A DNA stretch of 64,000 bases from Ulva prolifera (Eukaryota > Chlorophyta > Ulvophyceae > Ulvales > Ulvaceae), in contig CM041197.1 in NCBI GenBank assembly GCA_023078555.1, forward strand, positions 9,146,842 to 9,210,841, written 5' to 3'. Shown in pieces: positions 141 through 28,780 of the stretch (its first letter is position 1; every line of letters begins with the position of its first letter). The notes beneath the pieces are model-generated. The model searched no databases. It saw only the letters and a program-made list of their open reading frames with translations, and was not told the DNA's origin. Both the position numbers and the translations under genes were made by a program.

Positions 141-1211
141 CGCGAAGTCAATGTCTGACATTGGAGATGGGGTGCGGAGGCAACCAGGAGCGGTCGCGGA
201 GAACGGCGGCGGGTCGGCGTTGGCATGGGTCGGCGGGGAAGTGGGGATGGGGGCGGTGGCAGCGCTGGCGGAGATCCCGTTGGCATCAACACCGGGGACC
301 GCTGAGACTCCAGCTGCTCGCCCATGCGGGGGCTGGACCCCGAGCTGATGGAAATCACTGATGGCGGCGGCTGCGTGGGCCGCCGTGGGTCCTGTGGCTG
401 GGACAGAGGTGGAAATTGCGACTGGGAACGCAGGTCTGGCATGGGCGGGGACAGGCCGGGCGGGGGTGAACCGAACTTCTCCCGTAGCCGGGAGTAGTCG
501 CAGGGCTGGGGAGAGGTTGTTGGCAACGTCTGGTGGTATGGGATGGCCTGATTCATCGGCGACTGGCCAGATGATATGGCCGTTGATCCAGTGCTGGCGA
601 TTGGAAGCTCGTATCCGCTTGGATCCGGGGATGGGGAAGAGTGGCATCTGCGTGCTATAGCCGTGGTCAGACTTACGGCCGGAAATGCATAAGAAACTTG
701 CACTGGAATGGCATTTCCCGCACGAGAGGCACAAGAAATGGGATGGTCATCATGCAGTTGTACTGTCATGGTAGGCAGGTGCGTGGCACGAGACACTGCA
801 TCAGCCACCACGTTCTTGTCACCAGTCACGTACATGATGTGCCAGTTGATGCGGGACAGCGTCTCTACCCAACGCGCTTGCTTGTTATTCAAGCGTTGCT
901 GGGTCTGCAAGTATCTCAGTGGATTATGGTCAGAGTGGACATACACGGGGTGGCCATTTTCCAGATAGCAACGCCATTGGCGTGCAGCAAAAACAATGGC
1001 GCCCAGCTCTTTTTCAAAAGTGGCATGGTGGACCTCAGAGGAATTCATTTTTCGGCCTACCCATGCAATGGGATGCAGAGCTGCTTCATGGTCTTGCATC
1101 AAGACAGCTCCATAGGCATAATCACTGGCATCTGTGTATACATGGAAGGGCTGGTTGAGATTGGGATGGCGCAGGCCTGTGGCATTGATCAGAGCATGTT
1201 TGATGTCATTG
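141..1211 (-). mobile_element. Ty3/gypsy fossil piece: RNase H region
   Basis: Reading the minus strand from about 1211 to 141, the translation has the typical gypsy RNase H block: YTDASDYAYGAVL, then SSEVHHATFEKELGAIV, YVHSDHNPLRYL and NVVADAVSR. A proline- and serine-rich tail follows. The integrase part is not in the window. The piece is continuous in the parent element with 4513-5490; the two are separated by an insertion flanked by CATTG on both sides (1207-1211 and 4513-4517). Fossil, broken. Confidence 0.85.
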
Positions 1212-1520
1212 TGTCACGACATGTGGGTCGTTAGCAAGCACTCTGTGTTTACATGAGAGAGGGCGACATATTTATGCAATGAGTTTGAGGTCACACCTGT
1301 CACGACATGTGGGTCGTTAGCAAGCACTCTGTGATGCTCACTAACTACAGCTACACTATATGCAGATCAATATCCCACAGTCATGACCACTAGCACACTG
1401 TTGCTGCATGATATGCATTAGCCGCTACATTGACTCAGCACGAGTCAGCGCGAGTCAGCGCGAGTCAGCATGTCTACTCAGCGGGCGCTCAGCACTAGGC
1501 TAAACACACTTCTCTCAACA
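1212..1520 (-). repeat. Copia-A LTR (3' LTR of copy 4)
   Basis: This is an LTR of about 309 bp starting TGTCACGACA and ending CTCTCAACA when read on the plus strand, which is TG...CA on the element strand. It is the outer left boundary of the composite insertion in the gypsy element. Confidence 0.92.
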
Positions 1521-4203
1521 CGCCCCCATAGTCTAGGGCACAACGCCAAGCGTCTGACGATGCTTCTCAAACATCTGTTGCGACAGTGGCTTCGTTAAAA
1601 CATCAGCTGGATTGTCAGCTGTTGGAACTGGTATGAATCTCATCTGCTGTCGCTTCACCTTCTCTCTCACATGATGAAAAACAATTTCTATGTGCTTAGT
1701 CCGGGCAGCTGAAAGTGGATCTTCAATTAAACTCTTCGCTGCCCTGTTGTCAATCCCTATTGGTATACAAGCAGGAGGAAGGCCCACTTGAGGAGCCATG
1801 TCGTACAGATACTGTACTTCTTTTGCAATCTCTCCAGCTGCTATGTATTCTGCTTCTGATGATGAGCGACTCACGGTGGCCTGCTTGGAACACTTCCAAA
1901 CAATGCTACCTATGCCGCACTTCACAATGAAGCCTGTCGTTGATTTCCTTGTATACACACAACCAGCCCAATCAGAATCACAGAAACCATGCAATGCACA
2001 TTCAGGGCCTCCTAGTCTCAAGCTGTAGGAAGCAGTGCCATGCAGGTATAGCAGCACATCTTTCAGCCTAGCAAAGTTGCTGCATGTTGGCTGAGCAGTA
2101 AATCACAATGTGGGCTGAGAGCAGCTTGTTCCACACACGTGGAGCCTACTTGAGGCCATACAGACTCTTGTTCAAGAGACAAGCACGGCCTGTGTTATCA
2201 TCATATCCCGCTGGCTGTTGCATGAATATCTGCTCTTCTAGATCGCCCTGGATGAAGGCATTCTTGATATCAATGGCATGGCACTCAAGATCGAAGCTCG
2301 CCACGATAGAGAAGAACAGGCGGACTGTGCTTGCACGCACAACTGGAGAAAAGACTGCATTGTAGTCTACTCCAGGTCTTTGAAAGAAGCCTTTGATCAC
2401 AAGGCGCGCTTTGTAGCGCTCAATTGAACCATCTGCGTTCAACTTCCTCTTGAACACCCATTTGGATGGAATGGCCTTTTTGTCACGTGGCACTGCCATG
2501 AGTTCCCATGCATTCATTGACACGAGAGAATTGTACTCCTCATCAGCTGCAACTTGCCAAAACGGCGCTTCAGGTCCAGCAAGTGCTGCTTCAATGGTCA
2601 AGGGCTCAGGAGCGAGCCCTACAGCCGAAAATTCACATGGGCGTTGCGTGGGAGACCGTGCATGAATTGCCGATAAGGATCCTGAGGTGGCTGTCGTTTG
2701 CGCGGAGGATTGCGCCGTGGCATGACGGGTTGCACGGCGGACTCTTCAGAAGGTTCCTCTTCTGGAGCTGGATCCTCAGGCGCTTGCTCTTGTTCATCAT
2801 AGAGCGGATTTGTCGACATGAGTGGCTGCACATGCGCCGGCGGCAATGGCAGAGAAATTTGCTGCTGCAATTGCTGCTGAATCTGAGGCTGTGATTGGGA
2901 TGCTGCTTGTGGTGGCGCTTGCGGTGGCGCTTGTGGCGGCGCTGCTGCGTCCATCACATCTGACAACATGTCGAAGCGATCATCGCTTGCTGGTGCTGCC
3001 GACTCATCAAACCTCACATCTCTGGAGATCTGGACCTTGCCATCAGGAAGCAGGATTCTGAATGCTTTGAAATTTGGCTGAGCATAGCCAAGATGCTTAC
3101 CCACGACTGCTTTGGCTGGGAGTTGACCTTTCTTGCGCTTCTCGGATGGGACTCGCACGAAGCACGTGCAGCCCCAGATGTGCAAATTGCTGATATCAGG
3201 CTTGGTGCCTTTCAGGAGCTGCCATGATGATGGCTCACCTTCGCTGGACATGATGTTGGACAGGTACACGGCATGCATTGCTGCCTCTGCCCAATACTTC
3301 TTCTTTAAGCCTGCATCTGCCATCAGAGAGTCACGCAAAACTGAGCAAGAGCCGATGCCTCGCTCTGCATGCCCATTCTCAGCTGGGCTGTAGCCTGATG
3401 TTTCTTGTGACTCAATGTGCCTGTCATTGAGGAAGGACTGCACTTTGTTGGACAGAAACACTGTGTCGCGATCAAAGCGCACGGCACGAACAGTGGCATT
3501 GTACTTCTTCTCAAGTTTCGGAATGAGATTCATCAGTGCATCTGCTGCATCAGATTTTCTGGCAATCGGGACGATGACTTTATAGCCACTGAAGTCATCA
3601 ACGACCATCAGGTAGTAATTGGCACCACCTGCGGATGTTTCAAATGGTCCTGCAATATCAGTGTGCAGACGCTCCAGCTTGGCAGATGCTCTGCGGTGTG
3701 TAGCGGGAAATGATTCTCTCTTCATCCTCCCTATTGCACACGGGGTGCACACAGCTGTTGACTTGAGCTGTTCATCAAACACACGAGCTGGGGGCAGGCC
3801 TTGCACAGTCTCTCCTCGGGACATCTTTGCCAAGGTGCTGTGGCCTGCATGGCCGAATCTGCGATGCCATATGATGGCATCATTCACATGGGATGCAGCA
3901 GCAGCCTGTATCACCTGATCTGAGATGATCGGCTCACATTGTACACAGTAGAGACGATTGACTTTGTCGCCTCTCAAGAGCTGCTTGGAGCCATTGCAAA
4001 GAATAATCTTGTCTTTCTCGCCTGTGTACGAGAGCCCTGCTTCATCAGCACGGCTGAGAGATATCAGATTGTCTTGCAGTTTCGGAACAAGCAGCACATT
4101 CTTCAGCTCGACCTCTTCACCGCAATGATTGGTCAGCTTGACTGTGCCAACGGCTGAAACTTCCTCGGTCTGGTTGTTGGCTACAGTACACGTTGATTGC
4201 ATG
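1212..4203 (-). mobile_element. Copia-A copy 4, broken, minus strand
   Basis: A Ty1/copia fossil of the same family as 10315-15050. It has a full-length 3' LTR at 1212-1520, then RNase H (1533-2057), reverse transcriptase (2146-2601) and integrase plus protease end (2619-4203). The 5' part (gag and 5' LTR) is missing: at 4203 the element meets TRIM copy 1 through the shared word CATGGCA. A gag piece of the same family lies at 5491-5909. Roughly three to four breaks. Its outer end is marked by the target duplication CATTG in the gypsy element. Confidence 0.88.
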
Positions 4204-4512
4204 GCATCAAGCACTCAAGTATATATATGACCAGATCCTCGAAGGAAGTAGTACACCTTCGGGTGGGCGCTTTTCCTGACATGGTATCGGTGAGAGTGGT
4301 CATAGAGAGGATCTTAACCTCCATAGACGCAGGTTCGAATCCGGGTAGCTGCACCCGGATCCGCGTCCGCCCCCAAGTTTGTCTCCTCGGATCCTAGTCA
4401 GCGGTCCTTGAGTGAGGGGGGGTGTCATGATGAGTCATCAAGCACTCAAGTATATATATGACCAGATCCTCGAAGGAAGTAGTACACCTTCGGGTGGGCG
4501 CTTTTCCTGACA
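4204..4512 (+). mobile_element. TRIM copy 1, 5'-truncated
   Basis: A copy of the 321-bp mini-LTR element. The first LTR has lost its first bases (present from about 4204 to 4281). The primer-binding word TGGTATCGGTGA follows at 4282, the tRNA-like interior carries GGTTCGAATCC, a G-rich polypurine tract ends at 4422, and a complete 90-bp LTR runs 4423-4512. The right LTR end abuts gypsy sequence exactly at CATTG, which also flanks the Copia-A LTR at 1212. Confidence 0.88.
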
Positions 4513-5490
4513 CATTGAATGTCCGAGTGCATTGTTCAGTCCATGCGCTCTTGCCTTTGGCTTTCATGCGCTCGAGGAGTGGGGCAGCAAGGGTGGGAAA
4601 TTTTGGAATAAATCTGCGAAAATAGCCAGCAAGACCCAAGAATGATCGGATGGTATTGGTTGACGATTTTAAATCAGCCTCAGGCCATTGTTGCAACACT
4701 GAAACCTTGTGTGGGTCTGGTTTCACGGTATCTGCTGTAACAATATGGCCCAAGTATTTGACTTCTTGCATGGCAAATTGGCATTTGACAGCATTGCAGA
4801 AAAAGTTGTGTTCATGCAGCCTAGTCAACACACGATCAAGATTGATGGCATGATCCTCAGCAGTTCTGGAAATGATGATAATGTCATCGAGGTATGCAAG
4901 GCAAATCTTGCCAATCAGTCCACGCAAAACCACGTGCATTGCTTGTTGGAAAACACTCGGTGCATTGGTGAGACCGAATGGCATCACCGTCCATTCGTAC
5001 AGGCCATCAGGGGTGCGGAATGCAGTTTTTGGCTGGGATGTCGGGGCTAGTCTGATCTGGTGATATCCAGAAGCAAGATCCAATGCAGAAAAGTATCTCT
5101 GGCCTTGCAATTTATCAAGCAAGGCATCTATGCGTGGTAATGGGTATGTATTCTTTACTGTGTTCTCGTTCAGGTAGCGGTAGTCGACACACAGTCTCAG
5201 TTTACCTCCGGGTTTGGGAGCAAAAAGGACGCTGCTTGCCCAAGTGGCCCTGGGGCGTTTGATGCATTTGTGGTTGGTTGTTGTCTGGGGTTTTTTTTTT
5301 TTGCTGTGTTGCTTTCTTGTGGTTGCTGGTGTGGCAGCCGGTCGCTGGGTTGGCTTGATGTTGTTTGTTTGCTTTGCCATACAATGGCCAGATATGTGTA
5401 ACTTGGAATTAGCGATATGCATGTATGTGCGGCGTCGAAAAAGAAAGGTTTTCTGTCCCAGCAGCAAGTACCAGCACCAGTCAAGTCACC
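4513..5490 (-). mobile_element. Ty3/gypsy fossil piece: reverse transcriptase
   Basis: The minus-strand translation has the gypsy RT series: LRLCVDYRYLNENTVKNTYPLP, FSALDLASGYHQI, KTAFRTPDGLYEWTVMPFGL, the catalytic YLDD, then HNFFCNAVKCQF and SFLGLAGYFRRFIP. Upstream in the element is a lysine-, asparagine- and threonine-rich stretch near 5230-5400, a piece of which was also copied into Copia-B at 23418-23577. Broken at both sides. The right junction with a Copia-A gag piece is near 5490. Confidence 0.87.
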
Positions 5491-5909
5491 TCGTCTTCCT
5501 TGTGCATTTGTGCTGAGATCAATTCAGCACGTAAATGCTCTGCTCTGGTGATGAAGGTGTCAAGTGACTCATCAGCATTTTTTCTGAAGCTAGCTTGAGC
5601 TCGAGATAAGGCTATCTTCCGAGCCGAACTGACACCGGAGAACTGCTTCTTCAGCACGTCCCATATGTCTTTGGGAGATGCTGTGGGGCTGACTTTATGT
5701 ATTAAATCATCTCCGACATTGCATGCAAGTGCAAGTCGAGCTGCGTTTTTATGAGCAACGTCACCAGCATCATTGGCAACGGCGGTCCAACATTCAAGGC
5801 TTCTAAGCAGGATTTCCATCCGCTGAAACCATTGGACGGCATTGGCTTGAGTGAGCTCAATGCCAAGCTTGACATCTTTAAGATTCATTTCAGATCTTTG
5901 AAACGCAGA
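5491..5909 (-). mobile_element. Copia-A gag piece, minus strand
   Basis: This is nearly identical to the gag start of Copia-A (compare 14300-14710): it encodes residues about 1-136 of the family gag. It stands alone between the gypsy RT piece and a plus-strand Copia-A pol piece, meeting the latter head to head near 5910. Fossil fragment. Confidence 0.85.
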
Positions 5910-8087
5910 CAGGTCAACTCCCAGCCAAAGCAGTCGTGGGTAAGCATCTTGGCTATGCTCAGCCAAATTTCAAAGCATTCAGAATCCTGCTTCCTGATGG
6001 CAAGGTCCAGATCTCCAGAGATGTGAGGTTTGATGAGTCGGCAGCACCAGCAAGCGATGATCGCTTCGACATGTTGTCAGATGTGATGGACGCAGCAGCG
6101 CCGCCACAAACACCACCGCAAGCGCCACCACAAGCAGCATCGCAACCGCAGCCTCAGACTCAGCAGCAATCGCAGCAGCAAATTTCTCTGCCATTGCCGC
6201 CGGCGCATGTGCAGCCACTCATGTCGACAAATCCGCTCTATGATGAACAAGAGCAAGCGCCTGAGGATCCAGCTCCAGAAGAGGAACCTTCTGATGAATC
6301 CGCCGTGCATCCCGTCATGCCACGGCGCAATCCTCCGCGCAAACGGCAGCCACCTCAGGATCCTTATCGGCAATTTATGCACGGTCTCCCACGCAACGCC
6401 CACGTGAATTTTCGGCTGTAGGGCTCGCTCCTGAGCCCTTGACCATTGAAGCAGCACTTGCTGGACCTGAAGCGCCGTTTTGGCAAGTTGCAGCTGATGA
6501 GGAGTACAATTCTCTCGTGTCAATGAATGCGTGGGAACTCATGGCAGTGCCACGTGACAAAAAGGCCATTCCATCCAAATGGGTGTTCAAGAGGAAGTTG
6601 AACGCAGATGGTTCAATTGAGCGCTACAAAGCGCGCCTTGTGATCAAAGGCTTCGAAACACAGGCCGTGCTTGTCTCTTGAACAAGAGTCTGTATGGCCT
6701 CAAGCAGGCTCCACGTGTGTGGAACAAGCTGCTTTCTGCCCACATTGTCTTCCTGGGATTTGTCCAGAACAAGAGCGATGGTGCATTATTCATGTTGTTC
6801 TCTGAGCAACTCGGCTTTGTCCTCCTCCTTTGTTATGTGGACGACATTCAGATTGCTGCCAAGAAATTGAGCAGCGTTCAGAAGATCAAGCAAGCAATCT
6901 TGCTCAAATTCCCTGGGAAAAATCTGGGTGAGTCAAAGTTCTTCCTGCAAATGTCAATTCAACGAAATCGCCAACAGAAGCTCGTCTACTTAAAGCAGCA
7001 ACGCCACATTGAAAAGCTGATTGATGAGCACAATCTTCAAGATGCATGGCCAGTGTCAATCCCAATGATCGTCAATGTATATAAAGACCCATCAGGTCAA
7101 ACAATCACAGATCCAACCGCCATTTCGCAGTACAAGTCTATTGTGGGAGCTCTTCTCCACATTGCCAACCACACCAGGCCAGATGTTGCGTTCGCTGTCT
7201 CCTACCTGGCCAGATTTACTGCTCAGCCAACATGCAGCAACTTTGCTAGGCTGAAAGATGTGCTGCTATACCTGCATGGCACTGCTTCCTACAGCTTGAG
7301 ACTAGGAGGCCCTGAATGTGCATTGCATGGTTTCTGTGATTCTGATTGGGCTGGTTGTGTGTATACAAGGAAATCAACGACAGGCTTCATTGTGAAGTGC
7401 GGCATAGGTAGCATTGTTTGGAAGTGTTCCAAGCAGGCCACCGTGAGTCGCTCATCATCAGAAGCAGAATACATAGCAGCTGGAGAGATTGCAAAAGAAG
7501 TACAGTATCTGTACGACATGGCTCCTCAAGTGGGCCTTCCTCCAGCTTGTATACCAATAGGGATTGACAACAGGGCAGCGAAGAGTTTAATTGAAGATCC
7601 ACTTTCGGCTGCCCGGACTAAGCACATAGAAATTGTTTTCCATCATGTGAGAGAGAAGGTGAAGCGACAGCAGATGAGATTCATACCAGTTCCAACAGCT
7701 GACAACCCAGCTGATGTTTTAACGAAGCCACTGTCGCAACAGATGTTTGAGAAGCATCGACAGACGCTTGGCGTTGTGCCCTAGACTATGGGGGCGTGTT
7801 GAGAGAAGTGTGTTTAGCCTAGTGCTGAGCGCCCGCTGAGTAGACATGCTGACTCGCGCTGACTCGCGCTGACACGTGCTGAGTCAATGTAGCGGCTAAT
7901 GCATATCATGCAGCAACAGTGTGCTAGTGGTCATGACTGTGGGATATTGATCTGCATATAGTGTAGCTGTAGTTAGTGAGCATCACAGAGTGCTTGCTAA
8001 CGACCCACATGTCGTGACAGGTGTGACCTCAAACTCATTGCATCAATATGTCGCCATCTCTCATGTAACACAGAGTGCTTGCTAACG
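5910..8087 (+). mobile_element. Copia-A copy 3, 5'-truncated, plus strand
   Basis: A Ty1/copia fossil starting in the integrase C-terminal region (GQLPAKAVVGKHLGYAQ) and running through reverse transcriptase (YVDDIQ near 6836), RNase H, the polypurine tract before 7797 and a 3' LTR at 7797-8087 that lacks its last bases. About two to three breaks. TRIM copy 2 follows three bases later. Sequence is close to the whole copies, so the damage is recent. Confidence 0.87.
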
Positions 8088-8090
8088 TCA

Positions 8091-8411
8091 TGTCATGATG
8101 AGTCATCAAGCACTCAAGTATATATATGACCAGATCCTCGAAGGATGTAGTACACCTTCGGGTGGGCGCTTTTCCTGACATGGTATCGGTGAGAGTGGTC
8201 ATAGAGAGGATCTTAACCTCCATAGACGCAGGTTCGAATCCGGGTAGCTGCACCCGGATCCGCGTCCGCCCCCAAGTTTGTCTCCTCGGATCCTAGTCAG
8301 CGGTCCTTGAGTGAGGGGGGGTGTCATGATGAGTCATCAAGCACTCAAGTATATATATGACCAGATCCTCGAAGGATGTAGTACACCTTCGGGTGGGCGC
8401 TTTTCCTGACA
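8091..8411 (+). mobile_element. TRIM copy 2, complete 321-bp unit
   Basis: Two 90-bp LTRs (8091-8180 and 8322-8411) flank a 141-bp interior with primer-binding word TGGTATCGGTGA, the tRNA-like box GGTTCGAATCC and a G-run before the second LTR. It has no target duplication: CGTCA lies left and ATTAG right, both in Copia-A LTR pieces of opposite orientation. So it marks a recombination junction rather than a simple insertion. Confidence 0.9.
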
Positions 8412-8515
8412 ATTAGCCGCTACATTGACTCAGCACGAGTCAGCGCGAGTCAGCGCGAGTCAGCATGTCTACTCAGCGGGCGCTCAGCACTAGGCTAAAC
8501 ACACTTCTCTCAACA
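8412..8515 (-). repeat. Copia-A LTR fragment, minus strand
   Basis: The last 104 bp (plus-strand reading) of a minus-strand Copia-A LTR, ending CTCTCAACA at 8515. The outer LTR end abuts a host coding region that starts at 8516. So a Copia-A insertion appears to have cut that gene. Confidence 0.88.
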
Positions 8516-10314: not shown

Positions 10315-10622
10315 TGTCACGACATGTGGGTCGTTAGCAAGCACTCTGTGTTACATGAGAGATGGCGACATATTGATGCAATGAGTTTGAGGTCACACCT
10401 GTCACGACATGTGGGTCGTTAGCAAGCACTCTGTGATGCTCACTAACTACAGCTACACTATATGCAGATCAATATCCCACAGTCATGACCACTAGCACAC
10501 TGTTGCTGCATGATATGCATTAGCCGCTACATTGACTCAGCACGTGTCAGCGCGAGTCAGCGCGAGTCAGCATGTCTACTCAGCGGGCGCTCAGCACTAG
10601 GCTAAACACACTTCTCTCAACA
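10315..10622 (-). repeat. 3' LTR of Copia-A copy 1
   Basis: 308 bp, TG...CA on the element strand. The G-rich polypurine tract lies just inside at 10623-10635. It contains the 36-bp internal repeat twice. Confidence 0.95.
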
Positions 10623-10634
10623 CGCCCCCATAGT

Positions 10635-12167
10635 CTAGGGCACAACGCCAAGCGTCTGTCGATGCTTCTCAAACATCTGTTGCGACAGTGGCTTCGTTAA
10701 AACATCAGCTGGGTTGTCAGCTGTTGGAACTGGTATGAATCTCATCTGCTGTCGCTTCACCTTCTCTCTCACATGATGGAAAACAATTTCTATGTGCTTA
10801 GTCCGGGCAGCCGAAAGTGGATCTTCAATTAAACTCTTCGCTGCCCTGTTGTCAATCCCTATTGGTATACAAGCTGGAGGAAGGCCCACTTGAGGAGCCA
10901 TGTCGTACAGATACTGTACTTCTTTTGCAATCTCTCCAGCTGCTATGTATTCTGCTTCTGATGATGAGCGACTCACGGTGGCCTGCTTGGAACACTTCCA
11001 AACAATGCTACCTATGCCGCACTTCACAATGAAGCCTGTCGTTGATTTCCTTGTATACACACAACCAGCCCAATCAGAATCACAGAAACCATGCAATGCA
11101 CATTCAGGGCCTCCTAGTCTCAAGCTGTAGGAAGCAGTGCCATGCAGGTATAGCAGCACATCTTTCAGCCTAGCAAAGTTGCTGCATGTTGGCTGAGCAG
11201 TAAATCTGGCCAGGTAGGAGACAGCGAACGCAACATCTGGCCTGGTGTGGTTGGCAATGTGGAGAAGAGCTCCCACAATAGACTTGTACTGCGAAATGGC
11301 GGTTGGATCTGTGATTGTTTGACCTGATGGGTCTTTATATACATTGACGATCATTGGGATTGACACTGGCCATGCATCTTGAAGATTGTGCTCATCAATC
11401 AGCTTTTCAATGTGGCGTTGCTGCTTTAAGTAGACGAGCTTCTGTTGGCGATTTCGTTGAATTGACATTTGCAGGAAGAACTTTGACTCACCCAGATCTT
11501 TCCCAGGGAATTTGAGCAAGATTGCTTGCGTGATCTTCTGAACGCTGCTCAATTTCTTGGCAGCAATCTGAATGTCGTCCACATAACAGAGGAGGAGGAC
11601 AAAGCCGAGTTGCTCAGAGAACAACATGAACAATGCACCATCGCTCTTGTTCTGGACAAATCCCAGGAAGACAATGTGGGCTGAGAGCAGCTTGTTCCAC
11701 ACACGTGGAGCCTGCTTGAGGCCATACAGACTCTTGTTCAAGAGACAAGCACGGCCTGTGTTGTCATCATATCCCGCGGGCTGTTGCATGAATATCTGCT
11801 CTTCTAGATCGCCTTGGATGAAGGCATTTTTTATATCAATGGCATGGCACTCAAGATCAAAGCTTGCCACGATAGAGAAGAACAGGCGGACTGTGCTTGC
11901 ACGCACAACTGGAGAAAAGACTGCATTGTAGTCTACTCCAGGTCTTTGAAAGAAGCCTTTGATCACAAGGCGCGCTTTGTAGCGCTCAATTGAACCATCT
12001 GCGTTCAACTTCCTCTTGAACACCCATTTGGATGGAATGGCCTTTTTATCACGTGGCACTGCCATGAGTTCCCACGCATTCATTGATACGAGAGAATTGT
12101 ACTCCTCATCAGCTGCAACTTGCCAAAATGGCGCTTCAGGTCCAGCAAGTGCTGCTTCAATGGTCAA
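10635..12167 (-). CDS. Copia-A RT-RNase H ORF (copy 1)
   Basis: This open frame of about 510 codons encodes the reverse transcriptase and RNase H of the copia element. It starts in the RT N-terminal region (SLVSMNAWELM, IPSKWVFKRKL), has the catalytic YVDDIQ near residue 194, and ends with the copia RNase H blocks DSDWAGC (about residue 362) and SSSEAEYIA (about 403). It is identical in translation to 20719-22251. In a copia particle this region makes cDNA from the element RNA. Part of a fossil element that looks whole. Confidence 0.93.
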   Translation of the reverse strand: MTIEAALAGPEAPFWQVAADEEYNSLVSMNAWELMAVPRDKKAIPSKWVFKRKLNADGSIERYKARLVIKGFFQRPGVDYNAVFSPVVRASTVRLFFSIVASFDLECHAIDIKNAFIQGDLEEQIFMQQPAGYDDNTGRACLLNKSLYGLKQAPRVWNKLLSAHIVFLGFVQNKSDGALFMLFSEQLGFVLLLCYVDDIQIAAKKLSSVQKITQAILLKFPGKDLGESKFFLQMSIQRNRQQKLVYLKQQRHIEKLIDEHNLQDAWPVSIPMIVNVYKDPSGQTITDPTAISQYKSIVGALLHIANHTRPDVAFAVSYLARFTAQPTCSNFARLKDVLLYLHGTASYSLRLGGPECALHGFCDSDWAGCVYTRKSTTGFIVKCGIGSIVWKCSKQATVSRSSSEAEYIAAGEIAKEVQYLYDMAPQVGLPPACIPIGIDNRAAKSLIEDPLSAARTKHIEIVFHHVREKVKRQQMRFIPVPTADNPADVLTKPLSQQMFEKHRQTLGVVP

Positions 12168-12184
12168 GGGCTCAGGAGCGAGCC

Positions 12185-14698
12185 CTACAGCCGAAAATTC
12201 ACGTGGGCGTTGCGTGGGAGACCGTGCATAAATTGCCGATAAGGATCCTGAGGTGGCTGCCGTTTGCGCGGAGGATTGCGCCGTGGCATGACGGGATGCA
12301 CGGCGGATTCATCAGAAGGTTCCTCTTCTGGAGCTGGATCCTCAGGCGCTTGCTCTTGTTCATCATAGAGCGGATTTGTCGACATGAGTGGCTGCACATG
12401 CGCCGGCGGCAATGGCAGAGAAATTTGCTGCTGCGATTGCTGCTGAGTCTGAGGCTGCGGTTGCGATGCTGCTTGTGGTGGCGCTTGCGGTGGTGTTTGT
12501 GGCGGCGCTGCTGCGTCCATCACATCTGACAACATGTCGAAGCGATCATCGCTTGCTGGTGCTGCCGACTCATCAAACCTCACATCTCTGGAGATCTGGA
12601 CCTTGCCATCAGGAAGCAGGATTCTGAATGCTTTGAAATTTGGCTGAGCATAGCCAAGATGCTTACCCACGACTGCTTTGGCTGGGAGTTGACCTTTCTT
12701 GCGCTTCTCAGATGGGACTCGCACGAAGCACGTGCAGCCCCAGATGTGCAAATTGCTAATGTCAGGCTTGGTGCCTTTCAGGAGCTGCCATGATGATGGC
12801 TCACCTTCGCTGGACATGATGTTGGACAGATACACGGCATGCATTGCTGCCTCTGCCCAATACTTCTTCTTTAAGCCTGCATCTGCCATCAGAGAGTCAC
12901 GCAAAGCCGAGCAAGAGCCGATGCCTCGCTCTGCATGCCCATTCTCAGCTGGGCTGTAGCCTGATGTTTCTTGTGACTCAATGTGCCTGTCATTGAGGAA
13001 GGACTGCACTTTGTTGGACAGAAACACTGTGTCGCGATCAAAGCGCACGGCACGAACAGTGGCATTGTACTTCTTCTCAAGTTTCGGAATGAGATTCATC
13101 AGTGCATCTGCTGCATCAGATTTTCTGGCAATCGGGACGATGACTTTATAGCCACTGAAGTCATCAACGACCATCAGGTAGTAATTGGCACCACCTGCGG
13201 ATGTTTCAAATGGTCCTGCGATATCAGTGTGCAGACGCTCCAGCTTGGCAGTTGCTCTGCGGTGTGTTGCGGGAAATGATTCTCTCTTCATCCTCCCTAT
13301 TGCACACGGGGTGCACACAGCTGTTGACTTGAGCTGTTCATCAAACACACGAGCTGGGGGCAGGCCTTGCACAGTCTCTCCTCGGGACATCTTTGCCAAG
13401 GTGCTGTGGCCTGCATGGCCGAATCTGCGATGCCATATGATGGCATCATTCACATGGAATGCAGCAGCAGCCTGTATCACCTGATCTGAGATGATCGGCT
13501 CACACTGTACACAGTAGAGACGATTGACTTTGTCGCCTCTCAAGAGCTGCTTGGAGCCATTGCAAAGAATAATCTTGTCTTTCTCGCCTGTGTACGAGAG
13601 CCCTGCTTCATCAGCACGGCTGAGAGATATCAGATTGTCTTGCAGCTTCGGAACAAGCAGCACATTCTTCAGCTCGACCTCTTCACCGCAATGATTGGTC
13701 AGCTTGACTGTGCCAACGGCTGAAACTTCCTCGGTCTGGTTGTTGGCTACAGTACACGTTGATTGCATGGCAGTAATGTCATGCAGATACTCAGCTCGAT
13801 TCACCATGTGATCGGTAGCTGCTGAATCAAAGAGCCATCTGGACTCTTGTGAGGACGCAGCATTTGCAATGCAAACAAATGCGCTGGTGCTTGGAGGGCC
13901 AGATGCTTGATTAGCATTGGCACCAGAACCTCTGCCACTGCCACGATATCCACGGCCACGGCCTCGGCCACGGCCTCTGCCACGGCCTCTACCACGGCCT
14001 GCGCCTCGGCCAGCATTGGGATCATTCTCATAGGAAAGCTGATCATTCTTCAGTTTGAAGCACTGGAGAATCTGATGGCCTGGTCTGTGGCAATACTCAC
14101 ATTGATATCTCTGATCTGAGCTTATCTGATAAGCTCCGGACCGGGATGATGATGACGTGTCATGCAGCTTCTGATAGAAGGTGCCTCTGAGATTCTCAGT
14201 CACATCATCAAATGAGGGCAGAGTGGGCCGAGCCGATGTGGCTTGAGCCCATGATGAGAAGTCAGATTCATCAAGGGCAGCTAGAAACGTGAGTACAAAC
14301 TCGTCTTCCTTGTGCATTTGTGCTGAGATCAATTCAGCACGTAAATGCTCTGCTCTGGTGATGAAGGTGTCAAGTGACTCATCAGCATTTTTTCTGAAGC
14401 TAGCTTGAGCTCGAGATAAGGCTATCTTCCGAGCCGAACTGACACCGGAGAACTGCTTCTTCAGCACGTCCCATATGTCTTTGGGAGATGCTGTGGGGCT
14501 GACTTGATGTATTAAATCATCTCCGACATTGCATGCAAGTGCAAGTCGAGCTGCGTTTTTATGAGCAACGTCACCAGCATCATTGGCAACGGCGGTCCAA
14601 CATTCAAGGCTTCTAAGCAGGATTTCCATCCGCTGAAACCATTGGACGGCATTGGCTTGAGTGAGCTCAATGCCAAGCTTGACATCTTTAAGATTCAT
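12185..14698 (-). CDS. Copia-A gag-protease-integrase ORF (copy 1)
   Basis: 837 residues. Order: a gag region with a helical N-terminal half, a CCHC zinc knuckle (CEYCHRPGHQILQC, about residue 200), an RG-rich tract after it (about 225-250), a protease with FDSAATD (about 290), and an integrase with the HHCC finger (HRRFGH ... CTPC, from about 422) and the D, D, E core around 492, 552 and 585 (PAENGHAERG). A proline/glutamine-rich linker ends the frame. The particle packages element RNA through the knuckle, and the integrase inserts the cDNA. Confidence 0.93.
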   Translation of the reverse strand: MNLKDVKLGIELTQANAVQWFQRMEILLRSLECWTAVANDAGDVAHKNAARLALACNVGDDLIHQVSPTASPKDIWDVLKKQFSGVSSARKIALSRAQASFRKNADESLDTFITRAEHLRAELISAQMHKEDEFVLTFLAALDESDFSSWAQATSARPTLPSFDDVTENLRGTFYQKLHDTSSSSRSGAYQISSDQRYQCEYCHRPGHQILQCFKLKNDQLSYENDPNAGRGAGRGRGRGRGRGRGRGRGYRGSGRGSGANANQASGPPSTSAFVCIANAASSQESRWLFDSAATDHMVNRAEYLHDITAMQSTCTVANNQTEEVSAVGTVKLTNHCGEEVELKNVLLVPKLQDNLISLSRADEAGLSYTGEKDKIILCNGSKQLLRGDKVNRLYCVQCEPIISDQVIQAAAAFHVNDAIIWHRRFGHAGHSTLAKMSRGETVQGLPPARVFDEQLKSTAVCTPCAIGRMKRESFPATHRRATAKLERLHTDIAGPFETSAGGANYYLMVVDDFSGYKVIVPIARKSDAADALMNLIPKLEKKYNATVRAVRFDRDTVFLSNKVQSFLNDRHIESQETSGYSPAENGHAERGIGSCSALRDSLMADAGLKKKYWAEAAMHAVYLSNIMSSEGEPSSWQLLKGTKPDISNLHIWGCTCFVRVPSEKRKKGQLPAKAVVGKHLGYAQPNFKAFRILLPDGKVQISRDVRFDESAAPASDDRFDMLSDVMDAAAPPQTPPQAPPQAASQPQPQTQQQSQQQISLPLPPAHVQPLMSTNPLYDEQEQAPEDPAPEEEPSDESAVHPVMPRRNPPRKRQPPQDPYRQFMHGLPRNAHVNFRL

Positions 14699-14742
14699 TT
14701 CAGATCTTTGAAACGCAGTGGATTCGTCAAAAGCCCATAACC

Positions 14743-15050
14743 TGTCATGACATGTGGGTCGTTAGCAAGCACTCTGTGTTACATGAGAGATGGCGACATA
14801 TTGATGCAATGAGTTTGAGGTCACACCTGTCACGACATGTGGGTCGTTAGCAAGCACTCTGTGATGCTCACTAACTACAGCTACACTATATGCAGATCAA
14901 TATCCCACAGTCATGACCACTAGCACACTGTTGCTGCATGATATGCATTAGCCGCTACATTGACTCAGCACGTGTCAGCGCGAGTCAGCGCGAGTCAGCA
15001 TGTCTACTCAGCGGGCGCTCAGCACTAGGCTAAACACACTTCTCTCAACA
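14743..15050 (-). repeat. 5' LTR of Copia-A copy 1
   Basis: 308 bp and the same as the 3' LTR apart from about one base near its inner end. The leader next to it (14733-14742 on the plus strand) carries the complement of GGTTATGGGC, the presumed primer-binding site. Confidence 0.95.
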
Positions 15051-17835: not shown

Positions 17836-18143
17836 TGTTGAGAGAAGTGTGTTTAGCCTAGTGCTGAGCGCCCGCTGAGTAGACATGCTGACTCGCGCTG
17901 ACTCGCGCTGACACGTGCTGAGTCAATGTAGCGGCTAATGCATATCATGCAGCAACAGTGTGCTAGTGGTCATGACTGTGGGATATTGATCTGCATATAG
18001 TGTAGCTGTAGTTAGTGAGCATCACAGAGTGCTTGCTAACGACCCACATGTCGTGACAGGTGTGACCTCAAACTCATTGCATCAATATGTCGCCATCTCT
18101 CATGTAACACAGAGTGCTTGCTAACGACCCACATGTCGTGACA
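17836..18143 (+). repeat. 5' LTR of Copia-A copy 2
   Basis: 308 bp beginning TGTTGAGAGAAG and ending GTGACA. It carries a 36-bp direct repeat (18023-18058 and 18108-18143), the second copy forming the LTR end, and a phased set of TGACTC/TGAGTCA words near 17887-17925. Confidence 0.96.
17887..17926 (+). promoter_or_regulatory. Phased bZIP-like motif array in Copia-A LTR
   Basis: Four words spaced about 10 bp apart lie in the U3 part of the LTR: GCTGACTCGC, GCTGACTCGC, GCTGACACGTG and GCTGAGTCAA. TGAGTCA and CACGTG are known bZIP-type binding cores. One-helical-turn spacing would put all four on one DNA face. That they drive the element is inference. Confidence 0.4.
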
Positions 18144-18153
18144 GGTTATGGGC
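18144..18153 (+). promoter_or_regulatory. Copia-A primer-binding site (half-tRNA type)
   Basis: GGTTATGGGC starts at the base after the LTR. It is complementary to the anticodon loop of eukaryotic initiator methionine tRNA (GCCCAUAACC), not to a tRNA 3' end. Drosophila copia and yeast Ty5 are known to prime from such an internal tRNA-iMet half. Confidence 0.65.
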
Positions 18154-18187
18154 TTTTGACGAATCCACTGCGTTTCAAAGATCTGAA

Positions 18188-20701
18188 ATGAATCTTAAAG
18201 ATGTCAAGCTTGGCATTGAGCTCACTCAAGCCAATGCCGTCCAATGGTTTCAGCGGATGGAAATCCTGCTTAGAAGCCTTGAATGTTGGACCGCCGTTGC
18301 CAATGATGCTGGTGACGTTGCTCATAAAAACGCAGCTCGACTTGCACTTGCATGCAATGTCGGAGATGATTTAATACATCAAGTCAGCCCCACAGCATCT
18401 CCCAAAGACATATGGGACGTGCTGAAGAAGCAGTTCTCCGGTGTCAGTTCGGCTCGGAAGATAGCCTTATCTCGAGCTCAAGCTAGCTTCAGAAAAAATG
18501 CTGATGAGTCACTTGACACCTTCATCACCAGAGCAGAGCATTTACGTGCTGAATTGATCTCAGCACAAATGCACAAGGAAGACGAGTTTGTACTCACGTT
18601 TCTAGCTGCCCTTGATGAATCTGACTTCTCATCATGGGCTCAAGCCACATCGGCTCGGCCCACTCTGCCCTCATTTGATGATGTGACTGAGAATCTCAGA
18701 GGCACCTTCTATCAGAAGCTGCATGACACGTCATCATCATCCCGGTCCGGAGCTTATCAGATAAGCTCAGATCAGAGATATCAATGTGAGTATTGCCACA
18801 GACCAGGCCATCAGATTCTCCAGTGCTTCAAACTGAAGAATGATCAGCTTTCCTATGAGAATGATCCCAATGCTGGCCGAGGCGCAGGCCGTGGTAGAGG
18901 CCGTGGCAGAGGCCGTGGCCGAGGCCGTGGCCGTGGATATCGTGGCAGTGGCAGAGGTTCTGGTGCCAATGCTAATCAAGCATCTGGCCCTCCAAGCACC
19001 AGCGCATTTGTTTGCATTGCAAATGCTGCGTCCTCACAAGAGTCCAGATGGCTCTTTGATTCAGCAGCTACCGATCACATGGTGAATCGAGCTGAGTATC
19101 TGCATGACATTACTGCCATGCAATCAACGTGTACTGTAGCCAACAACCAGACCGAGGAAGTTTCAGCCGTTGGCACAGTCAAGCTGACCAATCATTGCGG
19201 TGAAGAGGTCGAGCTGAAGAATGTGCTGCTTGTTCCGAAGCTGCAAGACAATCTGATATCTCTCAGCCGTGCTGATGAAGCAGGGCTCTCGTACACAGGC
19301 GAGAAAGACAAGATTATTCTTTGCAATGGCTCCAAGCAGCTCTTGAGAGGCGACAAAGTCAATCGTCTCTACTGTGTACAGTGTGAGCCGATCATCTCAG
19401 ATCAGGTGATACAGGCTGCTGCTGCATTCCATGTGAATGATGCCATCATATGGCATCGCAGATTCGGCCATGCAGGCCACAGCACCTTGGCAAAGATGTC
19501 CCGAGGAGAGACTGTGCAAGGCCTGCCCCCAGCTCGTGTGTTTGATGAACAGCTCAAGTCAACAGCTGTGTGCACCCCGTGTGCAATAGGGAGGATGAAG
19601 AGAGAATCATTTCCCGCAACACACCGCAGAGCAACTGCCAAGCTGGAGCGTCTGCACACTGATATCGCAGGACCATTTGAAACATCCGCAGGTGGTGCCA
19701 ATTACTACCTGATGGTCGTTGATGACTTCAGTGGCTATAAAGTCATCGTCCCGATTGCCAGAAAATCTGATGCAGCAGATGCACTGATGAATCTCATTCC
19801 GAAACTTGAGAAGAAGTACAATGCCACTGTTCGTGCCGTGCGCTTTGATCGCGACACAGTGTTTCTGTCCAACAAAGTGCAGTCCTTCCTCAATGACAGG
19901 CACATTGAGTCACAAGAAACATCAGGCTACAGCCCAGCTGAGAATGGGCATGCAGAGCGAGGCATCGGCTCTTGCTCGGCTTTGCGTGACTCTCTGATGG
20001 CAGATGCAGGCTTAAAGAAGAAGTATTGGGCAGAGGCAGCAATGCATGCCGTGTATCTGTCCAACATCATGTCCAGCGAAGGTGAGCCATCATCATGGCA
20101 GCTCCTGAAAGGCACCAAGCCTGACATTAGCAATTTGCACATCTGGGGCTGCACGTGCTTCGTGCGAGTCCCATCTGAGAAGCGCAAGAAAGGTCAACTC
20201 CCAGCCAAAGCAGTCGTGGGTAAGCATCTTGGCTATGCTCAGCCAAATTTCAAAGCATTCAGAATCCTGCTTCCTGATGGCAAGGTCCAGATCTCCAGAG
20301 ATGTGAGGTTTGATGAGTCGGCAGCACCAGCAAGCGATGATCGCTTCGACATGTTGTCAGATGTGATGGACGCAGCAGCGCCGCCACAAACACCACCGCA
20401 AGCGCCACCACAAGCAGCATCGCAACCGCAGCCTCAGACTCAGCAGCAATCGCAGCAGCAAATTTCTCTGCCATTGCCGCCGGCGCATGTGCAGCCACTC
20501 ATGTCGACAAATCCGCTCTATGATGAACAAGAGCAAGCGCCTGAGGATCCAGCTCCAGAAGAGGAACCTTCTGATGAATCCGCCGTGCATCCCGTCATGC
20601 CACGGCGCAATCCTCCGCGCAAACGGCAGCCACCTCAGGATCCTTATCGGCAATTTATGCACGGTCTCCCACGCAACGCCCACGTGAATTTTCGGCTGTA
20701 G
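18188..20701 (+). CDS. Copia-A gag-protease-integrase ORF (copy 2)
   Basis: 837 residues, same translation as the ORF at 12185-14698. The zinc knuckle is near nucleotide 18785, the RG tract at 18877-18960, the protease FDSAATD near 19055, the integrase HHCC finger from about 19455 and its acidic core between about 19660 and 19950. Start chosen at the first ATG after the leader (18188), 44 bp from the LTR. Together with 20719-22251 it covers all enzymatic parts of a copia element. Confidence 0.94.
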   Translation: MNLKDVKLGIELTQANAVQWFQRMEILLRSLECWTAVANDAGDVAHKNAARLALACNVGDDLIHQVSPTASPKDIWDVLKKQFSGVSSARKIALSRAQASFRKNADESLDTFITRAEHLRAELISAQMHKEDEFVLTFLAALDESDFSSWAQATSARPTLPSFDDVTENLRGTFYQKLHDTSSSSRSGAYQISSDQRYQCEYCHRPGHQILQCFKLKNDQLSYENDPNAGRGAGRGRGRGRGRGRGRGRGYRGSGRGSGANANQASGPPSTSAFVCIANAASSQESRWLFDSAATDHMVNRAEYLHDITAMQSTCTVANNQTEEVSAVGTVKLTNHCGEEVELKNVLLVPKLQDNLISLSRADEAGLSYTGEKDKIILCNGSKQLLRGDKVNRLYCVQCEPIISDQVIQAAAAFHVNDAIIWHRRFGHAGHSTLAKMSRGETVQGLPPARVFDEQLKSTAVCTPCAIGRMKRESFPATHRRATAKLERLHTDIAGPFETSAGGANYYLMVVDDFSGYKVIVPIARKSDAADALMNLIPKLEKKYNATVRAVRFDRDTVFLSNKVQSFLNDRHIESQETSGYSPAENGHAERGIGSCSALRDSLMADAGLKKKYWAEAAMHAVYLSNIMSSEGEPSSWQLLKGTKPDISNLHIWGCTCFVRVPSEKRKKGQLPAKAVVGKHLGYAQPNFKAFRILLPDGKVQISRDVRFDESAAPASDDRFDMLSDVMDAAAPPQTPPQAPPQAASQPQPQTQQQSQQQISLPLPPAHVQPLMSTNPLYDEQEQAPEDPAPEEEPSDESAVHPVMPRRNPPRKRQPPQDPYRQFMHGLPRNAHVNFRL

Positions 20702-20718
20702 GGCTCGCTCCTGAGCCC

Positions 20719-22251
20719 TTGACCATTGAAGCAGCACTTGCTGGACCTGAAGCGCCATTTTGGCAAGTTGCAGCTGATGAGGAGTACAATTCTCTCGTAT
20801 CAATGAATGCGTGGGAACTCATGGCAGTGCCACGTGATAAAAAGGCCATTCCATCCAAATGGGTGTTCAAGAGGAAGTTGAACGCAGATGGTTCAATTGA
20901 GCGCTACAAAGCGCGCCTTGTGATCAAAGGCTTCTTTCAAAGACCTGGAGTAGACTACAATGCAGTCTTTTCTCCAGTTGTGCGTGCAAGCACAGTCCGC
21001 CTGTTCTTCTCTATCGTGGCAAGCTTTGATCTTGAGTGCCATGCCATTGATATAAAAAATGCCTTCATCCAAGGCGATCTAGAAGAGCAGATATTCATGC
21101 AACAGCCCGCGGGATATGATGACAACACAGGCCGTGCTTGTCTCTTGAACAAGAGTCTGTATGGCCTCAAGCAGGCTCCACGTGTGTGGAACAAGCTGCT
21201 CTCAGCCCACATTGTCTTCCTGGGATTTGTCCAGAACAAGAGCGATGGTGCATTGTTCATGTTGTTCTCTGAGCAACTCGGCTTTGTCCTCCTCCTCTGT
21301 TATGTGGACGACATTCAGATTGCTGCCAAGAAATTGAGCAGCGTTCAGAAGATCACGCAAGCAATCTTGCTCAAATTCCCTGGGAAAGATCTGGGTGAGT
21401 CAAAGTTCTTCCTGCAAATGTCAATTCAACGAAATCGCCAACAGAAGCTCGTCTACTTAAAGCAGCAACGCCACATTGAAAAGCTGATTGATGAGCACAA
21501 TCTTCAAGATGCATGGCCAGTGTCAATCCCAATGATCGTCAATGTATATAAAGACCCATCAGGTCAAACAATCACAGATCCAACCGCCATTTCGCAGTAC
21601 AAGTCTATTGTGGGAGCTCTTCTCCACATTGCCAACCACACCAGGCCAGATGTTGCGTTCGCTGTCTCCTACCTGGCCAGATTTACTGCTCAGCCAACAT
21701 GCAGCAACTTTGCTAGGCTGAAAGATGTGCTGCTATACCTGCATGGCACTGCTTCCTACAGCTTGAGACTAGGAGGCCCTGAATGTGCATTGCATGGTTT
21801 CTGTGATTCTGATTGGGCTGGTTGTGTGTATACAAGGAAATCAACGACAGGCTTCATTGTGAAGTGCGGCATAGGTAGCATTGTTTGGAAGTGTTCCAAG
21901 CAGGCCACCGTGAGTCGCTCATCATCAGAAGCAGAATACATAGCAGCTGGAGAGATTGCAAAAGAAGTACAGTATCTGTACGACATGGCTCCTCAAGTGG
22001 GCCTTCCTCCAGCTTGTATACCAATAGGGATTGACAACAGGGCAGCGAAGAGTTTAATTGAAGATCCACTTTCGGCTGCCCGGACTAAGCACATAGAAAT
22101 TGTTTTCCATCATGTGAGAGAGAAGGTGAAGCGACAGCAGATGAGATTCATACCAGTTCCAACAGCTGACAACCCAGCTGATGTTTTAACGAAGCCACTG
22201 TCGCAACAGATGTTTGAGAAGCATCGACAGACGCTTGGCGTTGTGCCCTAG
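20719..22251 (+). CDS. Copia-A RT-RNase H ORF (copy 2)
   Basis: About 510 codons, same translation as 10635-12167, ending 12 bp before the 3' LTR. The RT catalytic YVDD lies near 21301 and the RNase H blocks near 21805 and 21928. It lies just after the gag-protease-integrase ORF. The same two-ORF layout recurs in every copy in this window, so it was already present in their common ancestor. Confidence 0.93.
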   Translation: MTIEAALAGPEAPFWQVAADEEYNSLVSMNAWELMAVPRDKKAIPSKWVFKRKLNADGSIERYKARLVIKGFFQRPGVDYNAVFSPVVRASTVRLFFSIVASFDLECHAIDIKNAFIQGDLEEQIFMQQPAGYDDNTGRACLLNKSLYGLKQAPRVWNKLLSAHIVFLGFVQNKSDGALFMLFSEQLGFVLLLCYVDDIQIAAKKLSSVQKITQAILLKFPGKDLGESKFFLQMSIQRNRQQKLVYLKQQRHIEKLIDEHNLQDAWPVSIPMIVNVYKDPSGQTITDPTAISQYKSIVGALLHIANHTRPDVAFAVSYLARFTAQPTCSNFARLKDVLLYLHGTASYSLRLGGPECALHGFCDSDWAGCVYTRKSTTGFIVKCGIGSIVWKCSKQATVSRSSSEAEYIAAGEIAKEVQYLYDMAPQVGLPPACIPIGIDNRAAKSLIEDPLSAARTKHIEIVFHHVREKVKRQQMRFIPVPTADNPADVLTKPLSQQMFEKHRQTLGVVP

Positions 22252-22263
22252 ACTATGGGGGCG

Positions 22264-22571
22264 TGTTGAGAGAAGTGTGTTTAGCCTAGTGCTGAGCGCC
22301 CGCTGAGTAGACATGCTGACTCGCGCTGACTCGCGCTGACACGTGCTGAGTCAATGTAGCGGCTAATGCATATCATGCAGCAACAGTGTGCTAGTGGTCA
22401 TGACTGTGGGATATTGATCTGCATATAGTGTAGCTGTAGTTAGTGAGCATCACAGAGTGCTTGCTAACGACCCACATGTCGTGACAGGTGTGACCTCAAA
22501 CTCATTGCATCAATATGTCGCCATCTCTCATGTAACACAGAGTGCTTGCTAACGACCCACATGTCGTGACA
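22264..22571 (+). repeat. 3' LTR of Copia-A copy 2
   Basis: 308 bp, no difference seen from the 5' LTR at 17836-18143. Followed by the target duplication CGGCA. Confidence 0.96.
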
Positions 22572-22663
22572 CGGCAAAACAGTGGAATGCCCGCCGTGTC
22601 TGCGCACAGACATTGGCCGACGGCTTCCTGAACATGACCATAAACAGACATAACGCTAACATT

Positions 22664-22674
22664 CACCGATACCA
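22664..22674 (-). promoter_or_regulatory. Copia-B primer-binding site
   Basis: Read on the minus strand, TGGTATCGGTG directly follows the LTR end. TGGTATC is the classical complement of the 3' end of initiator methionine tRNA used by many copia elements. The TRIM units carry the same word in the same place. Confidence 0.7.
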
Positions 22675-22866
22675 TGTTAGAAAAGCTATCATTTGTGCAG
22701 GTCAGGACGCGCAGTCCTTGTTCAGGTCAGGTCAGGACAGCCAACATTTCGTACCTGCTGCGCACAGAGGTAGAACCGAGAGATGTTGAAGGGAAGTGCT
22801 AGTACCGGAAAACAGTAAAGAGAAAGGTTACAGATCTCAGTGTGCACGAGCTTATATGCACACCGA
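22675..22866 (-). repeat. Copia-B LTR piece (5' LTR of copy 1)
   Basis: This matches, in inverted orientation, the end of the LTR at 28713-28957, including the TATA region. It stops near 22866, where plus-strand Copia-B gag begins, so the two Copia-B copies meet head to head here. Confidence 0.85.
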
Positions 22867-23417
22867 GTGTTTACACTCAACTGGAGGCACTAGGTGCCGA
22901 TGTGGGCCAGCGATGGCTACGTTTGAAACTGTTAGAGGTGGGGGAGGAGTTCAACGCTGTGCGCGGCGAAGTTCAACACTCCTCCCCTCATGTGATAATA
23001 TCGCGTTTAACTGAGCATGCTGATTTGCTCAAACAACAGCGGTCGCTGCAGGCTAGGTCTGGGGCGCCCGCGGGCAAACCAGGCCATGGCTGGCGCAAGC
23101 AGCACCGTGGTGACGGCCCTGTGGTCGCTGCTCTCGCAGCTGGCCAGGCTCCTCGCGAGGAGACCAGGACCTGTTTCTTCTGCAAGAAGAAGGGACATTT
23201 GCGTGCGAACTGCCCCCAACGCAAACAGGCTGCGGCCAGAGATGTTTGCACCATTGAAATGCCTGCCAAGTACCCACAGCCGGACGCGTCCATGCCGTGG
23301 AACATCATTGTTGATAGTGGGTCGGACATGCATATAGTAGGAAATCGGGAAATGTTCACTGAGTACGGCCCATGTCAGAAAGTTGCCAATCTCGCGGGAC
23401 CAGGGCAGCTTTCTATC

Positions 23418-23577
23418 ATATCGCATAAGTTACACATATCTGGCCATTGTATGGCAAAGCAAACAAACAACATCAAGCCAACCCAGCGACCGGCTGCCAC
23501 ACCAGCAACCACAAGAAAGCAACGCAGCAAATAAAACCCCAGACAACAACCAACCACAAATGCATCAAACGCCCCAC
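23418..23577 (+). mobile_element. Gypsy fragment inserted in Copia-B
   Basis: About 160 bp matching the minus-strand gypsy sequence near 5260-5415, here in sense orientation with the host element. A 14-bp Copia-B word, CAGCTTTCTATCAT, occurs on both sides (23406-23419 and 23581-23594). No LTR ends are present, so this is not an integrase product. Confidence 0.82.
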
Positions 23578-24009
23578 GGCCAGCTTTCTATCATGGGCAG
23601 GGGAACCATTCAGGTGAACCTGGGTGCTTATGTGGACAAGCATGGGAACAAGCATCCACTGGATGTGGAAATTCCTGGTGTATACTATGCTCCTGAATGT
23701 CCGTACAACCTGCTCAGCACGATGGGTCTTAGACACGAGCAGATGTTCTTAGACACGCGTAGGAATGTGTTGTATGTCCCTGGTCTGGGTGATATGGCTA
23801 CCGACGTAGAGGACGATGCCAAATATCAGGAACTAGATGTGGATGGTCATCCTGTCTTTGCGTTTAAAATGGCAGTAGAGACCAAACCTATTCTCGTCGG
23901 TGCGCCTGTCAATAGGGGGGTAGTCTGGTCTAACCAGAGCAGTCCGACCTCAGTTATTGAGGATCAACAGCAGTGGCATCATATGGCGGTTGCGGCCATT
24001 GACCTGAAG

Positions 24010-24330
24010 TGTCAGGAAAAGCGCCCACCCGAAGGTGTACTACTTCCTTCGAGGATCTGGTCATATATATACTTGAGTGCTTGATGACTCATCATGACAC
24101 CCCCCCTCACTCAAGGACCGTTGACTAGGATCCGAGGAGACAAACTTGGAGGCGGACGCGGATCCGGGTGCAGCTACCCGGATTCGAACCTGCGTCTATG
24201 GAGATTAAGATCCTCTCTATGACCACTCTCACCGATACCATGTCAGGAAAAGCGCCCACCCGAAGGTGTACTACTTCCTTCGAGGATCTGGTCATATATA
24301 TACTTGAGTGCTTGATGACTCATCATGACA
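24010..24330 (-). mobile_element. TRIM copy 3, complete, in Copia-B
   Basis: A 321-bp unit with 90-bp LTRs at 24010-24099 and 24241-24330, inserted on the minus strand in the integrase region of Copia-B copy 2. TGAAG occurs at 24005-24009 and 24331-24335, a clean 5-bp target duplication. Copia-B sequence resumes exactly after it. This copy defines the unit boundaries. Confidence 0.95.
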
Positions 24331-28712: not shown

Positions 28713-28775
28713 CTCGATGTAGTGAGAGAGATCCCGCGAGGGTTTCCCGCCGTAACCTTGAGTGTTCGGTGTGCA

Positions 28776-28780
28776 TATAA
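28776..28780 (+). promoter_or_regulatory. Copia-B LTR TATA box
   Basis: CATATAAG in the second half of the Copia-B LTR is also conserved in the inverted LTR piece at 22675-22866. It is the likely LTR promoter TATA. Confidence 0.45.

Follow-up and report, generated by a model that had tools for sequence, protein, structure and literature searches.

A Copia-A/TRIM composite insertion within one 5-bp target duplication in Ulva prolifera

Complex insertions that combine several long terminal repeat (LTR) retrotransposon copies under one 5-bp duplication are known from grasses, where they were interpreted as the result of template switching (Sabot and Schulman, 2007; PMC1950507). Here, we describe a composite insertion in the green alga Ulva prolifera (assembly GCA_023078555.1, contig CM041197.1, positions 9,146,842 to 9,210,841; these 64,000 nt are called the window and all coordinates refer to it), in which part of a Copia-type element, Copia-A, and most of a terminal-repeat retrotransposon in miniature (TRIM) share one duplication of CATTG. 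Like the grass insertions, it has two element copies in one 5-bp duplication and is read as one integration. The grass insertions, however, are recognized by three LTRs, two complete cores of the same family and highly similar outer LTRs, a combination not found here, whereas the composite joins two families in opposite orientation, with two U5 ends outward and neither 5' side intact. Tandem LTR retrotransposon structures likewise place several elements within one target duplication, as far as the consulted part of PMC11899658 goes, whereas the composite is an inverted fusion. Retrotransposon sequence is also incorporated during the repair of double-strand breaks (PMC4516963, in part), but here an integrase-type duplication sits at the LTR ends.

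The TRIMs in the consulted sections of PMC4717578 and PMC10886601 share LTRs, primer-binding site, purine tract and 5-bp duplication with the element treated here, which measures 321 nt. Their helpers are proposed in these sections from sequence likeness or from the primer-binding site, whereas the composite is a physical joint, and the family it involves is not the one whose primer-binding site matches best. TRIMs have been reported in Chlamydomonas reinhardtii and Volvox carteri and were not found in Chlorella variabilis, according to the same portion of PMC4717578. Since the carriage of protein-less elements is usually inferred from sequence likeness, a TRIM joined within one duplication to a Copia family other than its best match would physically record that the two cDNAs were together at integration. 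No inverted two-family insertion under one duplication was found among the listed papers of an open-licence library, judged mostly by titles and the starts of abstracts. The composite seems to be an uncommon version of an accident of a type already known.

Structure of the composite insertion

The insert of 3,301 nt (1212-4512) splits a gypsy-type pol gene, with the following arrangement (RT, reverse transcriptase):

142..1211, minus strand: gypsy pol flank, RNase H and downstream
1207..1211: CATTG, left duplication copy, outside TGTCA... (starts at 1212)
1212..4206, minus strand: Copia-A part, 2,995 nt, intact U5 end outward at 1212
1212-1520, minus strand: LTR of the Copia-A part, followed by the RNase H/RT, integrase and pre-integrase regions
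2104..2105, minus strand: site of a 464-nt internal deletion in the Copia-A part (11207-11670 of the full copy, RT region)
4205..4206: CA, 2-nt overlap of the Copia-A and TRIM parts
4205..4512, plus strand: TRIM part, 308 nt, base 14 to last base of the 321-nt element, U5 end outward
4205-4281, 4282-4422 and 4423-4512, plus strand: 5' LTR without 13 nt, internal region and complete 3' LTR of the TRIM part
4513..4517: CATTG, right duplication copy, outside ...TGACA (ends at 4512)
4513..5299, minus strand: gypsy pol flank, reverse transcriptase

The CATTG copies at 1207-1211 and 4513-4517, claimed in the original prediction, are borne out: they are exact, they lie directly at TG..CA ends as a short duplication of fixed length (5 bp), and the gypsy frame is open on both sides, for 262 aa on the RT side and 356 aa on the RNase H side. 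When 100 nt of each flank are fused at one CATTG, they read through in the same gypsy frame, and Pfam identifies RVT_1 on one side and RT_RNaseH on the other. Because the flanks read through in frame and the RT and RNase H domains are split between them, the target was most likely one continuous gypsy gene in which five bases were duplicated; its continuity without the insert and one duplicate is read from the frame of the joined flanks only. By eye, the gypsy likeness of the 4513..5299 flank probably stops near 5270. For 5-mers drawn at random from the window, the chance of a match is 0.0012 (2,000,000 pairs). Pairing 15 outer LTR ends or element borders with one another gives 105 pairs, of which five match: in four, both members belong to one normal element, and the fifth is that of the composite insert. 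Several near-identical copies in the window could have led an assembler to misjoin reads over the repeated Copia-A and TRIM sequences, but an in-frame return to the gypsy gene with a shared CATTG is not expected of a misjoin, and we consider an artefact of this kind extremely improbable.

The ends of the insert can be read against five full copies in the window:

10315..15050, minus strand: full Copia-A copy 1, duplication TCAAG
17836..22571, plus strand: full Copia-A copy 2, duplication CGGCA
8091..8411, plus strand: TRIM-a, full, no duplication (CGTCA / ATTAG), between Copia-A LTR pieces
24010..24330, minus strand: TRIM-b, full, duplication TGAAG, missing from the related Copia-B copy (near 16000-16009)
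28392..28712, plus strand: TRIM-c, full, duplication CTCGA, inside the 3' LTR of Copia-B

Thus, 5-bp duplications accompany both full Copia-A copies and two of the three full TRIM copies. The full Copia-A copies show that 1212 is a U5 end, confirming the proposal that the left end is an outward 3' LTR end of Copia-A on the minus strand. At the right, the expected outward 3' end of a TRIM also stood, position 4512 being the U5 end of the full TRIMs, but the stretch that it terminates is more than an LTR, comprising 308 nt of the complete 321-nt element. Instead of the U3 and U5 ends of one element, the outer ends are therefore read as the U5 ends of two families. The two 5' parts do meet at the predicted point near 4203, but the word that they were said to share amounts only to the CA at 4205-4206.

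Copia-A copies 1 and 2 are 99.98% identical and have 308-nt LTRs (window self-comparison). Both (10638-14761 and 18125-22248) contain two overlapping frames, for gag-integrase (858 aa) and RT-RNase H (557 aa), and the composite insert retains the break between them; no XXXYYYZ slippery heptamer was found in the 121-nt frame overlap of copy 2. Relative to the full copies, the Copia-A part lacks 1,278 nt of its 5' side, and its identity to 10315-11206 and 11671-13772 is 98.2-99.0%. Pfam on 2622-4214 detected SH3, gag-pre-integrase and Pol_BBD domains above cut-off and the integrase core below its cut-off. A spliced intron as the source of the 464-nt deletion was rejected by eye, as the borders (11206/11671) have no overlap and are not GT..AG. 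A further Copia-A LTR end lies at 1-140 of the window, with the 36-nt terminal repeat present once and not twice as in the full copies.

The TRIM has 90-nt LTRs and a 141-nt internal region, with TGGTATC after the 5' LTR and a G-rich tract before the 3' LTR. It shows the short LTRs, primer-binding site, purine tract and size under about 1 kb of its class and is too short for retroelement proteins. The motif GGTTCGAATCC in the internal region (28482-28622) resembles a tRNA B box. As a tRNA gene, however, this region was rejected: ARAGORN called none and Rfam returned nothing (window; 28380-28730). Its fold is unremarkable, 184 of 200 shuffles folding at least as well.

Integration, joining and age of the two parts

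A single integration that drew on one Copia-A and one TRIM cDNA, as suggested in the original prediction, is the best-supported origin of the composite in view of the shared duplication, the open gypsy frame and the young look of both parts, although the left border is ambiguous. That it proceeded via the U5 ends of the two cDNAs, whose free ends were then trimmed and joined by repair, seems to us reasonably probable. We infer that one integrase complex would have brought together the U5 ends of a Copia-A cDNA and of an almost full-length, double-stranded TRIM cDNA, and that both would have been joined 5 bp apart into the gypsy gene, giving CATTG on each side. In the order of steps and the repair route that we envisage, the two ends not used by the integrase would have been trimmed, by 13 nt in the TRIM and by 1,278 nt in Copia-A (unless the Copia-A cDNA was incomplete), and host end joining may then have sealed them with the 2-nt overlap; alternatively, the cDNAs might have been joined just before integration. 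Purified retroviral integrases can join two separate U5-end DNAs in concert in vitro; for Rev-A, the consulted part of PMC3790719 gives 26 sequenced concerted products with 5-bp duplications, in addition to 13 half-site and 4 multiple half-site products.

The composite suggests that copies of Copia-A and the TRIM met. As the TRIM part includes the entire 3' LTR and a 5' LTR short of only 13 nt, its cDNA would have been nearly complete and presumably double-stranded; such a near-finished cDNA that lost 13 nt appears to fit DNA end joining better than a switch between RNA templates. A chimeric cDNA made by template switching on co-packaged RNAs and integrated by its two U5 ends would follow the explanation offered for the grass insertions with their one 5-bp duplication (PMC1950507). 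We regard it as very improbable here, since the two parts have opposite orientations and the bulk of the 5' LTR, judging from the general pathway a late product of reverse transcription, is already present in the TRIM part.

Several observations weigh against a single integration of two cDNAs. Firstly, the composite is seen at a single locus. Secondly, TRIM-a lies between Copia-A pieces without a duplication, so some Copia-A/TRIM joints in the window may be plain rearrangements. Thirdly, the overlap at the junction is no greater than chance (0.16 for at least two shared bases at random joins). Fourthly, the sharing of one particle is not expected, because the TRIM has a primer site and a U3 end unlike those of Copia-A (see below), although their cDNAs could have met outside a particle. 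Finally, the first five bases of the TRIM equal those of the outward Copia-A U5 end (TGTCA), which makes the left border ambiguous, as it could be read as the TRIM's own first five bases; at the right border, the TRIM U5 and Copia-A U3 ends have three bases in common.

This ambiguity, which the original prediction overlooked, opens the way for the main alternative, a normal two-ended TRIM insertion in which a break near the U3 end, perhaps at an unrepaired integration gap, picked up Copia-A cDNA through microhomology of TGTCA at the left and CA at the right side. Standard TRIM integration would then suffice, but the break would have to lie no more than about 13 nt from the TRIM end, and the captured DNA would have to bring a natural Copia-A terminus, and we consider such a capture unlikely.

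The ages of the parts bear on whether they arrived together. In the Copia-A part, 42 differences are private relative to the other aligned copies: 8 among 893 columns and 34 among 2,102, the latter stretch being spanned only in part by the mosaic at 5490-8515. In the 308 nt of the TRIM part there are none, against 4.3 expected at the rate of the Copia-A part (P 0.013). Between 2105-4206 and Copia-A copy 1 there are 37 differences, including three non-private ones. With five in the frame overlap set aside and the eight in 1212-2104 not included, 24 of the 32 coding differences fall on third codon positions (P 2e-6), and the translated Copia-A pieces of the insert differ in 9 of 528 and 6 of 212 residues. 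Most Copia-A differences thus probably date from a source line that was under selection and were not acquired after insertion. With this third-position bias and a TRIM part free of private differences, the insert appears young. The RT remnant of the insert carries one stop codon, which speaks either against a fully working source or for a later origin of the stop.

Separate insertion of Copia-A and the TRIM at the same five bases, followed by a deletion over the facing ends and the middle CATTG, would accord with the other internal deletions in the window's Copia-A pieces. However, exact reuse of a 5-bp site is unlikely (0.0012 per pair) and both parts appear young, making this sequence of events quite improbable.

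Copia-B as the more likely helper of the TRIM

A second Copia family in the window, Copia-B, shares more features with the TRIM:

22866..28957, plus strand: Copia-B, 5' side truncated, with U3 and U5 ends resembling those of the TRIM
22663..22674, minus strand: Copia-B primer-binding site, 12 bases identical to that of the TRIM
15161-17835, minus strand: related Copia-B piece

The last piece appears to resume on the far side of Copia-A copy 2, where 22572-22866 would hold its 5' untranslated region and part of its LTR. In the primer-binding site, Copia-B agrees with the TRIM in 14 of 16 positions (the first 12 identical) and Copia-A in 7 of 16. At the U3 end the counts are 10 and 8 of 16, respectively, and at the U5 end both families reach 10 of 16 without gaps. 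Among 2,000 shuffles, the gapped scores of Copia-B for primer-binding site, U3 and U5 end were reached by 0, 0.4% and 0, and that of the Copia-A U5 end by 0.15%. Copia-B therefore shares both the primer-binding site and the terminal LTR sequences with the TRIM, whereas in Copia-A the U5 end alone agrees. Since the primer-binding site separates the two families and the U5 end does not, the TRIM is more likely a satellite of Copia-B than of Copia-A on these sequence matches, and the composite would then be a cross-family event. For Copia-A, this weakens the earlier idea that the composite is evidence of TRIM travel with Copia particles, of which it is no proof. In Copia-A, GGTTATGGGC fits the anticodon-loop part of the initiator tRNA as primer. 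A primer type of this kind is described for fungal TRIMs in the consulted part of PMC10886601.

It is possible, although we put this forward only tentatively and with some doubt, that integrase complexes accept cDNA ends across families, and that a TRIM helped by Copia-B was synapsed with a Copia-A cDNA, U5 to U5, and inserted as one. If so, cDNAs fused head to head in inverted orientation would arise regularly as a by-product in this organism, as two further head-to-head joins in the window (near 5909 and at 22865-22866) may indicate.

Other fusions and repeats in the window

Besides the composite, the window contains a second Copia-A/TRIM mosaic and three further joins in opposite orientation, two of them head to head:

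5490..8515: second mosaic, with Copia-A gag (minus), pol (plus), LTR (plus) without its last 17 nt, full TRIM-a and LTR piece (minus)
near 5909: head-to-head join of Copia-A gag (minus) to pol (plus)
8411/8412: opposite-orientation join between the U5 end of TRIM-a and a Copia-A LTR piece (minus)
22865-22866: head-to-head join of the LTR (minus) of an opposite Copia-B copy to Copia-B gag (plus), truncated in gag, 2-nt overlap

Counting this mosaic, Copia-A pieces are joined to two of the four TRIM copies in the window, a recurrence that is suggestive only. The mosaic has a 189-nt pol deletion with a 2-nt filler, and its outer flanks (GTCAC and AGACC) differ, without a duplication. To its right, the Copia-B fusion at 22866 is flanked by CCGTC, a word that inspection by eye did not find in 15040-15180; its left outer border was not located. 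Because no outer duplication was found for the mosaic or TRIM-a and this border was not located, the three further joins may be later rearrangements.

In viral_contigs, neither the TRIM LTR pattern nor the Copia-A LTR end had an exact match, and the TRIM had no match in genome_contigs (by pattern) or plasmids. Pattern matches to the Copia-A RT protein numbered two in viral_contigs and 11 in genome_contigs, none of them confirmed as relatives. The scanned collections cover viruses, prokaryotes and plasmids, where absence says little.

A short repeat (23420-23577 and 5245-5404) occurs in one Copia-B copy but not in the other. It is flanked there on both sides by ATGATAGAAAGCTG and looks like a truncated non-LTR retrocopy. 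In addition, Pfam identified a Mutator-like element (MULE) transposase domain at 37318-37941.
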